From Thermogutta sp. (lineage in GTDB: Bacteria; Planctomycetota; Planctomycetia; Pirellulales; Thermoguttaceae), in assembly GCA_012798155.1 (NCBI GenBank), contig JAAZNR010000442.1:1-11629 (forward strand): DNA of 11,629 nt, written 5' to 3'. The notes under the pieces were generated by a model. The model ran no database searches. It saw only the letters and a list, made by a program, of their open reading frames with translations, and had not been told where the DNA came from. Shown here in pieces: positions 2,645-6,254 of this stretch. The position numbers and the translations under genes are program-made. Every line of letters starts with the position of its first letter. The stretch's first letter is position 1.

Positions 2645-2692
2645 GGGTGGAGTTTTTTCTTCGCGGCGTGCAGAAAGAGATTGCATCACAGG

Positions 2693-3328
2693 ATGTCCGC
2701 GGTGCAGGAATCGCGACTGCGAGGCGACCTCCAATCGCTGTCCGATGAGCAGTTGGCTCATCAGGCGCAGGAGGGCTGCGCCGCGAGTTTCGAGGAGCTG
2801 GTGCGACGCTATCAAGTACCCGTCCTCCATTTTTTGCGGCGGAAGGCCTTCGCCGTCAACGACGTGGAGGATCTGACGCAGGAGACGTTTTTGCGAGCCT
2901 ATCGCAAACTGGGGCACTACCGCAGCGACCGTGCGTTTCGGCCCTGGTTGTTTACGGTGGCCTTTCGCGTCGCCCTGAACGCGGCACGCGACCGGAAACG
3001 GGCGGAGCAAGCCAGGCCGATGGAGGACCTCACTATCGAGGCTCGGCCGTCGAGCCGCGGCAAGGACGATCCCGAAACCCACTTGCGTTTGTGGAGCATT
3101 GCCGAGGACGCCTTGAGCGAACCGCAGTTCACCGCGTTGTGGCTGTTTTATGTGGAACAACTGAGCGTTCGGGAAATCGGCTGCGTCCTCGGACGCTCCG
3201 CGGCGTCGGTCAAGACTACGCTGTTTCGGGCGAGAAAAAGGCTGGAACCCTTCCTCCGGCGGTTCACTTCGGAAGGGGAGCGGCCGGGATCGCCCGCCGG
3301 GACAATCACCACGGGAAAAGAGGCGTGA
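2693..3328 (+). CDS. ECF-type RNA polymerase sigma factor (sigma-70 family)
   Basis: This 211-residue protein has the two-domain ECF layout. Region 2 spans about residues 32-103: ASFEELVRRYQ, the core-binding DVEDLTQETFLRAYRKLGHYR (57-77), and the -10-recognition helix FRPWLFTVAFRVALNAARDRKR (82-103). A linker of about 35 residues is followed by region 4 (138-190) with the helix-turn-helix QLSVREIGCVLGRSAASVKTTLFRARKRL that reads the -35 element. The C-terminal tail (191-211) looks disordered. It would direct RNA polymerase to a small set of promoters and is normally held inactive by an anti-sigma factor; the next gene is a good candidate. A TTG at 2681, in frame four codons upstream, is an alternative start, since neither start has a strong ribosome site. 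The ECF subgroup was not determined. Confidence 0.93.
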   Translation: MSAVQESRLRGDLQSLSDEQLAHQAQEGCAASFEELVRRYQVPVLHFLRRKAFAVNDVEDLTQETFLRAYRKLGHYRSDRAFRPWLFTVAFRVALNAARDRKRAEQARPMEDLTIEARPSSRGKDDPETHLRLWSIAEDALSEPQFTALWLFYVEQLSVREIGCVLGRSAASVKTTLFRARKRLEPFLRRFTSEGERPGSPAGTITTGKEA

Positions 3329-3454: not shown

Positions 3455-4027
3455 ATGCGGGACTCGACGTTTTCCGATCCCGATCCCCGGTTCGTCGCCG
3501 ACTCGCGATTGGGTACGCGACTTCGGCAAGAGGCCTTCGAGGATCGCCCGACATTTTCGCCGTCGCTTCACGCGCGGATCGTGCAGGCCGTCCGGAACGA
3601 GCCGATCCCGCGAGGGAACACGCAAGGGAACAACGGCCTCCGTTTATTGCGGTTTCAGGAGCCGGACGGGAGGCGGAACCTGCTTTCGGTTTCGTCGGGC
3701 ATGGTTGCCGCGACTCTGTTGATCGGTTCGCTCGTCTGGTGGTTTGCCGCCGATCACCGGCAGGCCGGCGTCGCACCTCCCGCGGAGACCGCCGAGCGTC
3801 AGTCGGCCCAAGATTCGGCGGCGCCGCAACCGGCTCTCGCGGCATTGCCGCCGGAGGTCTTGAAAACCGCGTCGTCGCTTCCCGATTTCGCGATCCGTCA
3901 ATTGCAGACGACGTTGGGACAGGCTCACGACCGGCGGTGGGCCTATCTGGATCACGATGCCGCGGTGGCCAAACGCCTGGTCGCCGGCCAATTTCCGACC
4001 GGTTTGGCGGCGGCCGACATGCCGTGA
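3455..4027 (+). CDS. Single-pass membrane protein, probable anti-sigma factor of the preceding ECF sigma
   Basis: The start at 3455 is set by GGGGGAAG six bases upstream; a GTG-started extension to 3389 lacks a ribosome site. The 190-residue product has a cytoplasmic N-terminal part (1-75) with FSPSLHARIVQAVR (34-47), a pattern I associate with planctomycete proteins encoded after ECF sigma genes. One transmembrane segment follows (about 76-98, LLSVSSGMVAATLLIGSLVWWF), then an extracytoplasmic tail rich in alanine, proline and glutamine. The protein contains no cysteine, so it is not a zinc-binding (ZAS, HxxxCxxC) anti-sigma. The gene follows the sigma gene by 126 bp on the same strand, which supports a sigma/anti-sigma pair; direct interaction is inference. 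The last codons and stop lie within the first, partial unit of a tandem array, so the C-terminus (AADMP) may be remodelled by repeat slippage. Confidence 0.7.
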   Translation: MRDSTFSDPDPRFVADSRLGTRLRQEAFEDRPTFSPSLHARIVQAVRNEPIPRGNTQGNNGLRLLRFQEPDGRRNLLSVSSGMVAATLLIGSLVWWFAADHRQAGVAPPAETAERQSAQDSAAPQPALAALPPEVLKTASSLPDFAIRQLQTTLGQAHDRRWAYLDHDAAVAKRLVAGQFPTGLAAADMP

Positions 4028-4135
4028 ACGTAACTCGCTGATATGGTGTGAACGCAACTCGCCGAGATATGGCGTGAACGTAGCTCGCTTATGTGCCGTG
4101 CACGTAAGTCGCCGATATGGCGTGAACGTAACTCG
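4011..4135. repeat. Tandem array of about 24-bp units crossing the stop codon of the 3455 gene
   Basis: Units start at 4026 (24 bp), 4050 (26 bp), 4076 (24 bp), 4100 (24 bp) and 4124 (12 bp, partial). A partial unit at 4011-4025 lies inside the coding sequence. Each full unit contains a variant of GAACGTAACTCGC followed by a variant of GATATGGCGT. The gene's TGA (4025-4027) sits at a unit junction, and the same CGTGAACG context recurs at most later junctions. Copies differ by a few bases, so the array is not freshly made. Spacers are absent, so it is not a CRISPR array. Confidence 0.9.
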
Positions 4136-4381
4136 ATCGGGCGGCCGCCGCGCCGGCGCCGACACCGGCCGAGCCTGTGAACGGCGAAAAACCTCCGCAG
4201 CGGGCGGAAGCGGGAGCAGGTCGGGCGAGGCCGCAGCGGCCCGGAGAAAGAAGGACGTAGTACCACATCCAACGTCACTGTATCCGATGAAACCGTTCCG
4301 GGAAAACATGGGGCAAAGCGTGGCTCGCGACGACCGTCACCTGGGATGGGAAAGCGTGAATCGCGACGGTTGTCGCTGCGG
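4136..4381. other. Non-coding spacer between the 24-bp array and the MITE-like element
   Basis: No convincing gene is present. The stretch holds a GGCCGC-A-GCGGCC palindrome (4229-4241) and most of a degenerate 36-bp tandem duplication with an overlapping inverted repeat (listed separately). Long frames cross it on both strands but have no ribosome site or recognisable domain. Confidence 0.6.
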
Positions 4382-4386
4382 ATAGG
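4315..4386. repeat. Degenerate 36-bp tandem duplication with internal inverted repeat
   Basis: Positions 4315-4350 and 4351-4386 match at 26 of 36 bases by hand alignment; both begin AAAGCGTG and share TCGCGACG. Within the pair, GCGACGACCGTC (4327-4338) is complementary to GACGGTTGTCGC (4365-4376) with one mismatch or wobble, so the transcript can fold into a 12-bp hairpin with a 26-base loop. The second copy ends in the target-site duplication of the adjacent MITE-like element. Confidence 0.65.
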
Positions 4387-4387
4387 A

Positions 4388-4553
4388 CTGGACTTTTGCA
4401 AATTGTGGTGACGAGTTCTTGTCCGCCTTGGAAGAGGGTTATGGTGAGGGCAATTAGCCGCGAAAACGGCCTGCCGTGATTGTCCAACTTCACCAAGCCC
4501 TCACCCGCTGCCCCTCTCCCAGAGGGAGAGGGGAGCGGTTTGCAAAAGTCCAG
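4388..4553. mobile_element. MITE-like non-autonomous element, 166 bp, 15-bp perfect TIRs, 6-bp TSD
   Basis: The left end CTGGACTTTTGCAAA (4388-4402) is exactly the reverse complement of the right end TTTGCAAAAGTCCAG (4539-4553). Immediately outside both ends lies the same hexamer ATAGGA (4382-4387 and 4554-4559), as expected for a target-site duplication. The interior is too short to encode a transposase. It has a second perfect inverted pair, GGTGAGGGC (4443-4451) with GCCCTCACC (4497-4505), and a strong hairpin at 4505-4538. An element of this form would be moved in trans by a transposase that recognises the same ends; none is in the window and I cannot name the family. Its right end is 45 bases before the ATG of the 4599 gene, so it probably changed that gene's upstream region. 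Confidence 0.85.
4505..4538. repeat. Strong REP-like hairpin inside the MITE-like element
   Basis: CCCCTCTCCC (4511-4520) pairs perfectly with GGGAGAGGGG (4524-4533) around an AGA loop. CCGCT (4505-4509) and AGCGG (4534-4538) extend the stem to 15 bp with one bulged G (4510). Preceded by CCCTCACCC, it resembles the CCCTCACC...CCTCTCCC hairpin repeats that I recall from many bacterial genomes. No T tract follows, so it is not an evident terminator. Confidence 0.8.
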
Positions 4554-4598
4554 ATAGGAGTTCGGTGTTGGGCTTTCTTTCACTGGAGGAGGAGTGCC

Positions 4599-6254
4599 AT
4601 GAGAAGCAGAGCATCGTTTCGATGGATGGCGGTCGCCGTGCTGCTGGGCGCCTGGACCGCCGCGGTCCCATCGGTAGCCGAGGAGCCGATGGGCATCGTT
4701 CGATTCGCTTCCCTCGATGAGTGGGACCGGATCATGGATGGAATCGAAGAGCTGAGCGGGGATTCGGCCGTCGCCAAGGCCCTGGGTCCCGCTCGCATCG
4801 CTCTCGCGATGGCTCGCGGGAGCGGCATCGACGACTCGCGTCCTTGGGGATTGGCTTGCCTGCCCGTCGGCGACGGCGCCGGTCTGGTCCTGGTCGTCCC
4901 TGTCAAGGATGTGGACCGGCTGCATGAGACGGCAAAGCCCGCCATCGAAGAGCTGGAGGAGTTGGAGGGCGGAGGCTATCGCGTCAAGATGGGCGGCCGC
5001 AATCTGTTTTGCGCGGTGGGCGGGGGCTGGATCTCCGTTTCGGAAAAAGCCGAGGCCCTGAAACAGGTACCCGACGATCCGACACCGTGGCTGGACGCCC
5101 CGGAGGGCGCCGGTTGCGTGGCGGCTCGGGCCAATCTTGCCGCCGTGCCCCGCGAACAGGCCGACAAGGTACGTAACCGGCTCCGCAAGCAGGCTCGCAA
5201 AGCGTTGCATCAACAGCCGGGTGAGAGCGACGCCGTCTTCGAACTTCGCAAGGCCGCGGCTAAGCGGATGGAAACCGCGCTCTGGGAGGTTCTCCGGCAA
5301 ACGGAAACCCTGGATTTCGCCGTGAACTGGGACCGCCAGGCCGGCAAGGTACTCCTCACGAGCGTCTGGAAGGCCCAGGAAGGGACGGAGTTGGCGGATT
5401 GGTTCCGGAAACAGGAGGAACTCGTCAGCCCCCTGCCGCTGCTCCGCTCGTATCCCGGGACGCTCTGCTATCTCGGCTGGAACTACCTTTTCCCGGGCCC
5501 CTCTCACGCCGAGCTTGACGCAGCAGGCCGGGTAATTCGCGATCAACTGCACGCCCAACTCGAGCGGAGGTTGCCCGATCCCACCGAGGCCGAATTCGCG
5601 AAGGGCATGGTGGACGATTTCCTGCGGCTGCTGGGAGAGGCGGCTGAAAGCGGCCGCTCCGAAGGCGCCGCCGCCGCATTGAGCCGAAAAGACGAACTTT
5701 ACCTGATTGCGGCCGGCCGCGTCCCCGACCCGCTGCAAGTCGAGCAACTGGCCGGCAAGATCGTGGAGGCGATTCAAGCCAAGGTTCCGCAGGCGGTCGT
5801 CTCCGTTCAACCCGATGCGTTTGCCGACGAGGATTTCAAGATTCACCTGCTGACGGTGAATTTGCCGGAGGAAGCGGCGAAGAATCCGGGCGTGCAACGC
5901 ATGTTCGGCTCCACATTGAACTTGGCGATGCTCGCCTCGGAAGAGTACGTCGCGGTGATCCTCGGCAAGGACGCCGGACCGGTGTTGCGGGACTTCGTGG
6001 AGGAAGCCGAATCCCTCGATCCGCAGGTCTCGCCCGCCGTGGAAATGCGCCTCAATATCGAGAAGGCCGTCGCCTTCGCATCGCAGTTCGCGCCCGAGCA
6101 TCAAAAGGAGAAACTCTCCGCGGTCCTGGATCTCTTCAGCAAGACCGCCGATGAGGAGCAGATTCGGGTCACGGTCACGTGCCGAGGTTCCGAGGTCCGC
6201 AAGACCGTCGAGATCGACCAGGCCGTATTCCAGATTCCGCGCGCCACCCGGTAA
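4599..6254 (+). CDS. Large secreted planctomycete-type protein of unknown function
   Basis: The start at 4599 is chosen for its strong GGAGGAGGAG (4585-4594) four bases upstream and for the signal peptide it opens: basic MRSRASFRW, hydrophobic core 10-22, and SVA before EE (probable cleavage after residue 27). The open frame reaches back to 4476, but that part crosses the MITE-like element and is not coding-like. The 551-residue product has a first domain with GIDDSRPWG (76-84), a VVPVKDVDRL stretch (99-108) and GGWISVSEKAEAL (142-154). This order I recognise from a family of exported planctomycete proteins with no assigned activity. A charged helical region (about 185-250) and a second alpha/beta half follow. 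No catalytic motif, lipobox or C-terminal anchor is visible. It seems to be a single-gene unit: a repeat-rich spacer precedes it and a 397-bp spacer follows. Confidence 0.8.
   Translation: MRSRASFRWMAVAVLLGAWTAAVPSVAEEPMGIVRFASLDEWDRIMDGIEELSGDSAVAKALGPARIALAMARGSGIDDSRPWGLACLPVGDGAGLVLVVPVKDVDRLHETAKPAIEELEELEGGGYRVKMGGRNLFCAVGGGWISVSEKAEALKQVPDDPTPWLDAPEGAGCVAARANLAAVPREQADKVRNRLRKQARKALHQQPGESDAVFELRKAAAKRMETALWEVLRQTETLDFAVNWDRQAGKVLLTSVWKAQEGTELADWFRKQEELVSPLPLLRSYPGTLCYLGWNYLFPGPSHAELDAAGRVIRDQLHAQLERRLPDPTEAEFAKGMVDDFLRLLGEAAESGRSEGAAAALSRKDELYLIAAGRVPDPLQVEQLAGKIVEAIQAKVPQAVVSVQPDAFADEDFKIHLLTVNLPEEAAKNPGVQRMFGSTLNLAMLASEEYVAVILGKDAGPVLRDFVEEAESLDPQVSPAVEMRLNIEKAVAFASQFAPEHQKEKLSAVLDLFSKTADEEQIRVTVTCRGSEVRKTVEIDQAVFQIPRATR

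Follow-up and report, generated by a model that had tools for sequence, protein, structure and literature searches.

Structure of the element upstream of the gene at 4599

The window (the whole 11,629-nucleotide stretch of Thermogutta sp. DNA that was analysed) contains a 166-bp segment with perfect 15-bp ends that lies between two copies of the hexamer ATAGGA and stops 45 bases before a start codon (4553 to the ATG at 4599), in agreement with an earlier note made from the sequence alone. Upstream of the insert, positions 2681–3328 encode a sigma-70-family factor (regions 2 and 4). The features of the locus, in window coordinates, are the following.

4382–4387, no strand: left copy of the 6-bp target-site duplication, ATAGGA
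4388–4553, + strand: 166-bp MITE (miniature transposable element), non-autonomous and without a transposase gene
4388–4402, + strand: left terminal inverted repeat, CTGGACTTTTGCAAA
4419–4450, + strand: counterpart, by alignment, of the type A triplex motif that G014 and G032 copies contain; the window copy is degenerate here
4443–4451, + strand: left arm of the nested inverted pair
4498–4532, − strand: type B-like intrastrand triplex motif, CCCTCTCCC-TCT-GGGAGAGGG-GCAGC-GGGTGAGGG, the motif being as given in the available text of PMC4666352
4511–4533, no strand: 10-bp perfect hairpin belonging to the triplex motif
4539–4553, − strand: right terminal inverted repeat (TTTGCAAAAGTCCAG)
4554–4559, no strand: right copy of the target-site duplication, ATAGGA
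4599–6254, + strand: downstream 551-aa gene with a signal-peptide-like start (by eye) and without a Pfam match, given as context only

The terminal repeats CTGGACTTTTGCAAA and TTTGCAAAAGTCCAG are complementary at 15 of 15 positions, and the nested inverted pair announced in the earlier note (GGTGAGGGC/GCCCTCACC) is indeed present, at 4443–4451/4497–4505. The 15-bp hairpin described in that note stands in part: positions 4511–4533 form a perfect 10-bp stem with a 3-nt loop, and only the predicted fold lengthens this stem to 15 pairs, the other five with one bulge. The DNA fold of the whole element is strongly palindromic (z −7.4; as RNA, z −9.1). Its size, 166 bp in most copies read, is too short for a transposase gene. 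Neither a promoter- or terminator-like site nor an Rfam match at the gathering threshold was found within the insert. Two 36-bp copies, 72% alike, lie directly left of the element, and degenerate tandem repeats with periods of 24 and 50 bp occupy 4013–4135 and 4312–4383 of the window.

Copies and target sites in the host and its relatives

The earlier note took the segment for a MITE and named the absence of any other copy as an argument against this reading. In the host assembly (G000; 988 contigs, 4.29 Mb, 87.85% complete), a search for the 15-mer with up to one mismatch returned 88 forward and 90 reverse occurrences, versus 1 + 1 for the reversed control, a number far above chance. These 178 ends correspond to about 90 copies, and the argument against the MITE reading therefore falls. 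A BLAST search with the element gave 106 candidates in the host, and the 40 that were scored all display 92–100% identity. We read 40 host loci, that is, the 20 best matches to the window and 20 loci from among 100 of the 178 ends, the latter picked mostly for unpaired or oddly spaced ends, so that the sample is not random. In the 166-bp consensus derived from 38 host copies, the terminal repeats are conserved at 98.6% and the interior at 96.5%; one copy (L002) is identical to the consensus and the window copy is five differences away, a near-identity that fits a recent spread.

Most of these copies, which occupy different sites, are flanked by their own 6–7-bp duplications, as expected for a MITE. 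Among 37 distinct host copies, 20 have an exact 6-bp duplication and 3 an exact 7-bp one (re-paired flanks give 0.65 and 0.08), whereas 14 have no exact duplication; if one mismatch is allowed, duplications are found in 31 copies versus 2.3 with re-paired flanks, leaving 6 without. Copies from other genomes (n = 41) behave in the same way, with 14 and 2 exact duplications of 6 and 7 bp, respectively, and 24 at one mismatch versus 3.0. The preferred target is TTNNNA or its complement, present in 16/37 left and 18/37 right host flanks versus 1.5% of positions. ORFs are avoided: 13 of 28 host sites fall within ORFs of 150 aa or more, a class that includes spurious ORFs, versus 87% of random positions. 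At three host loci (L014, L015 and L040), the MITE sits in a short tandem repeat, and visual inspection of the flanks indicates that the neighbouring units represent the unoccupied sequence. In the case of L012, the loci L022 and L024 contain unoccupied sequences that match its left flank and its duplication but hardly its right flank. An automatic search of the host flanks found no full-length empty-site match, and in G002 (400 kb compared) a long alignment was obtained for 1 of 40 loci, not across the insertion site, so that no empty orthologous spacer was found there.

Several side observations concern the insertion sites. In a test made after the fact, 13/33 host insertion sites (among them those of L002, L003, L004, L014, L015 and L040) lie in, or at most 15 bp from, a short tandem repeat, versus 7% of random positions; split by ORF, the figures are 7/17 versus 16% outside ORFs and 6/16 versus 5% inside ORFs. 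L040 contains, around 1500–1640, a 22-bp tandem array with an inserted MITE; its units are of the type CCGGCACTTTTGCAGGCAACCA, in which CACTTTTGCA is similar to the MITE end. Complete elements accompanied by an additional or partial end were seen at L004, L028 and L034 in the host and at L084 in G003, suggesting recombination or one-ended events; at L004, two right ends lie 36 bp apart, with TTATAA after each.

Outside the host, the 166-bp query matched in 25/60 relatives. Among the matches listed, full- or near-full-length ones occur in the host, G003 (80–82%) and G014/G032/G035 (72–76%); G014, G032, G008 and G035 are Pirellulales MAGs. The bare end CTGGANTTTTGCAAA is present in 43/395 genomes of the order and is abundant in G003, G008, G073, G068, G121 and G134. 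The interiors vary, measuring 203 bp in G008, 261 bp in G121 and 125 bp in G073 and G236, and forms of 71–73 bp exist in G014, G068 and G067. Since different interiors are found between the same ends, the ends and not the interior constitute the shared unit. In G134, elements of 627–909 bp (L175, L179, L246 and L248) have the same ends and no open frame of more than 81 codons; L179 contains a nested CACCCCTAACCCCTCC palindrome.

Bacterial MITEs are short and gene-less, with terminal inverted repeats, target-site duplications and a high copy number. The window element agrees with them in all these features, and in the available text of the literature searched we found no report of a MITE with these ends, of planctomycete MITEs, or of IS701 tied to MITEs or planctomycetes. 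Similarly, no occurrence of the 15-mer end was found in the literature searched, and no relatives of the element were found in viral contigs.

The triplex motif inside the element

Judging by their sequence, the nested pair and the hairpin are parts of an intrastrand triplex motif published by Holder et al. 2015 (PMC4666352). The available text of that paper describes a G/C-rich motif of two types, A and B, reports a triple helix for the E. coli motif and ties the motif to genome instability; in E. coli MG1655, all five close pairs consist of an inverted type A motif with a type B motif, and no association with transposons was found in this organism. Here the motif differs from that description in that it lies inside an element endowed with ends and duplications and in that its second loop is longer than CCG. 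The interior of the element contains a type B-like motif and, opposite to it, a stretch that aligns with the intact type A motif of two related genera: the G014 and G032 copies contain a type A motif plus an inverted type B-like motif with the longer second loop, and in the host copies the half opposite the type B-like motif is degenerate.

The motif pattern CCCTC.CCC-loop-GGG.GAGGG-loop-GGGTGAGGG (two mismatches allowed) is present in 34/38 host copies. Over 121,285 bp of host loci, which were chosen as MITE-bearing, 34 motifs lie inside MITEs and none outside. Changes on both sides affect 1/33 stem pairs; the stems are kept by sequence, which gives no support to the idea of an RNA fold under selection. 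The motif is also found on its own in other genomes: it is present at 18 of the 20 loci L049–L068, in no case within 200 bp of an end. Conversely, none of the 15 same-end copies checked in G008, G073, G121, G134 and G236 (2, 4, 4, 4 and 1, respectively) contains the motif. The same ends thus occur without the motif in other genera, indicating that the motif is cargo and is not needed for movement.

The element provides a concrete case of a transposable element with an intrastrand triplex motif as its cargo, and no earlier case was found in the available text of the literature searched. Such carriage makes the question of how the motif spreads testable. A tentative proposal, to which we give somewhat less than even chances, is that, at least in planctomycetes, the motif spreads as MITE cargo, an inverted A/B pair having been captured between IS701-type ends and multiplied to about 90 copies, and that similar packaging may explain how a motif without a known mover reached hundreds of bacterial genomes. 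At the E. coli hrpB–mrcB locus (L327; 3521 of 5426 genomes have a place where at least 80% of the query is covered), the triplex pair is polymorphic, and in two other alleles read a stretch of about 117 bp is replaced by 15 bp, no clean duplication being present. The idea that the E. coli triplex pairs are insertions was discarded because these alleles lack a clean duplication, mobility there not being supported.

The candidate transposase and competing explanations

The earlier note considered the family of the mobilising transposase unknown and proposed a search for a full-length IS with the same ends and 6-bp duplications. The family can now be narrowed to a branch of IS701, since the same ends are carried by IS701-type insertion sequences of related planctomycetes; none was found in the host, where PF13546 gave no match in G000 (nor in G003) and the L237 protein gave none in G000. 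A full-length IS was found in relatives: L237, in G218, is a 1432-bp element with CTGGACTTTTGCA at both ends (15/15 and 13/15) and an intact 449-aa ORF. The encoded protein matches the NCBIfam model NF033540 (IS701) with 180.8 bits versus a cut-off of 150, as well as PF13546, and D101/D102, D191 and E315, invariant in seven aligned transposase proteins, are putative catalytic residues. The second half of the proposal did not hold: the three complete planctomycete IS copies (L237, L287 and L288; 1432, 1470 and 1452 bp) have no matching 6–7-bp duplication.

Further associations between the ends and this type of gene were observed in several genomes: (i) solo ends immediately precede a transposase gene of the same type in G050, G018, G004 and G007, the weakest match to the L237 protein among these being that of L239 of G004 (E 1.5e-5); (ii) the end lies downstream of the 3′ end of such a gene in G218, G160 and G236; (iii) two contigs of G236 carry IS 3′ ends and the genome also has a 125-bp MITE with the duplication TACTTA, of which one end agrees with the IS 3′ end at 16/20 bases next to the 15-mer. 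No clear sequence beyond the 15-mer is shared by the host MITE and the IS ends. The hexamers flanking IS ends fit TTNNNA/TNNNAA in 11/19 cases versus 2.0% of positions (10/18 without L158). For this count, the MITE duplications served to define the motif, not every end is independent, some ends read CTGAAG or CTAAAC, and part of the flanks had been viewed before counting. L158 (G071), first counted as an IS end by its sequence, was dropped, having no transposase match.

The distribution of the transposase is sparse. A 412-aa stretch of the L237 protein, from MPAIVEF on, was found in 12/395 genomes of the order (E ≤ 1e-20) and, at 1e-40, in 1/392 genomes of the phylum sample. Among the 12 genomes with an L237-type transposase, G068 is the only one of the end-rich genomes (G003, G008, G068, G073, G121 and G134), and the single IS end found there reads CTGAAG. 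Of 3995 protein relatives, 120 were listed; for 88 of these the longest contig does not exceed 2000 bp, and many such contigs are roughly as long as an IS. This suggests that copies of the IS are collapsed during metagenome assembly, so that a MAG such as that of the host would miss them. Since the host assembly yielded no IS701-type gene and the three complete IS copies lack duplications, mobilisation in trans is something that we infer. According to the available text of PMC2266710, IS701 elements are 1400–1550 bp long, with 4-bp target repeats and the end consensus ---YACT-Y--YR, which is said not to represent the whole family. L237 resembles the family in its transposase (NF033540), its 1432-bp length and its 15-bp end, which has 6/7 of the conserved positions in that consensus; it differs in its fourth base, G instead of Y, and the MITE differs by its duplications of 6–7 bp instead of 4. 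Altogether, the shared ends suggest that the mover is probably an IS701-type transposase.

The element might instead be a MITE moved by a transposase of another family with 5–6-bp duplications, above all IS1634, the match to the IS701 ends being then convergent. IS1634 elements have 5–6-bp AT-rich duplications and ends starting with C (available text of PMC2266710), and IS1634 matches occur in 47/119 genomes of the family; however, no IS1634 match was found in the host and, of 30 IS1634 loci retrieved, none has two ends that each differ by no more than two mismatches, whereas IS701-type loci do carry the ends. Likewise, three of 30 PF01609 loci from 11 MITE-bearing genomes have ends within two mismatches, but none encloses a transposase between both ends. 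We consider this origin unlikely. A REP/BIME-type palindromic unit moved by a RAYT (Y1) transposase would account for the strong palindromic fold and the bias to intergenic sites, but REP elements, to our knowledge, lack long terminal repeats and target-site duplications, both of which are present here; in addition, most copies have the same length of 166 bp and paired changes in the stems are almost absent, so that we give this explanation practically no credence.

The insert may possibly regulate the gene at 4599, a role for which the analysis gave no support. That it is a regulatory element of this secreted-protein gene (promoter, terminator or RNA stem) would be in keeping with its distance of 45 bp from the start codon and its stable RNA fold, but is quite improbable in view of the lack of promoter- or terminator-like sites and Rfam matches reported above and of stems hardly varied by compensatory change. 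Finally, homologous recombination, gene conversion or triplex-linked instability could have spread the segment in place of transposition. The motif is linked to genome instability in the available text of PMC4666352 and a few copies look recombined (L004 and L034, which have extra ends), but most copies read have their own 6–7-bp duplication and the same-end copies checked in five other genomes are devoid of the motif; this reading is, in our opinion, very improbable.

We thus favour, with high confidence, the interpretation of the segment as a MITE, a 166-bp non-autonomous transposon of its Pirellulales host, with an IS701-family transposase as its mover and a triplex motif that is carried passively and multiplied. 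An IS701-family transposase, encoded by an IS that is missing in the assembly or has since been lost, would bind the 15-bp ends and move the element; staggered cuts 6–7 bp apart in T..A-bounded targets would give rise, upon repair, to the duplications; the host interior would descend from an inverted type A/type B-like pair; and the motif would be a passenger that the MITE multiplies in the genome. What is new here is the likely mover and the probable identity of the inner pair and hairpin as a triplex motif. A likely transposase can thereby be named for a family of high-copy elements that spans different genera of an order still largely uncultured; the data also point to an IS701 branch that would cut its targets 6–7 bp apart instead of 4.

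Other candidates were examined and set aside. The IS5-like element at L206 (G073; family assigned by eye; 337-aa transposase gene, about 716–2250) has apparently inserted in a MITE of the 125-bp type, L229 is an IS4-like gene beside a decayed MITE-like end, and L221 is a PF01609 locus with a 166-bp end pair. The three PF01609 matches in the host (L041–L043) have no end. The extended-end pattern, searched in 119 genomes and the contig collection (7 stretches), retrieved MITEs and solo ends but no IS, and the solo end at L094 (G008) precedes a non-transposase gene. PF13546 matches taken as a class have no pair of close ends (0/30 fetched loci), whereas the narrower L237 group has them. Members of the IS6/IS26 family generate 8-bp duplications. 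This family was also rejected: its ends are GG in the available text of PMC8944449 versus CT here, and the duplications of the element are of 6–7 bp.

Relatives of the IS701 type read in haloarchaea also speak for the link between IS and MITE: eight copies out of 56 matched plasmid records were examined, namely ISHti12, ISHala4 and six without an element name. Duplications of 6 or 7 bp were found in 7/8 copies and none in the eighth, with a script that let the boundary shift by a few bases and was used without a shuffled control, the 7-bp duplications becoming 5 bp if the ends are placed one base further out. ISHti12 and ISHala4 differ from the planctomycete elements in their transposases (31–32% identical) and their archaeal hosts. 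The ends of the haloarchaeal elements, such as CTCAGCTTTGCACGTT, CTTGACTTCGCACGTT or CTCAGCTTTG(A/C)ACGTT, resemble the MITE end CTGGACTTTTGCAAA, and the elements measure 1.23–1.28 kb.
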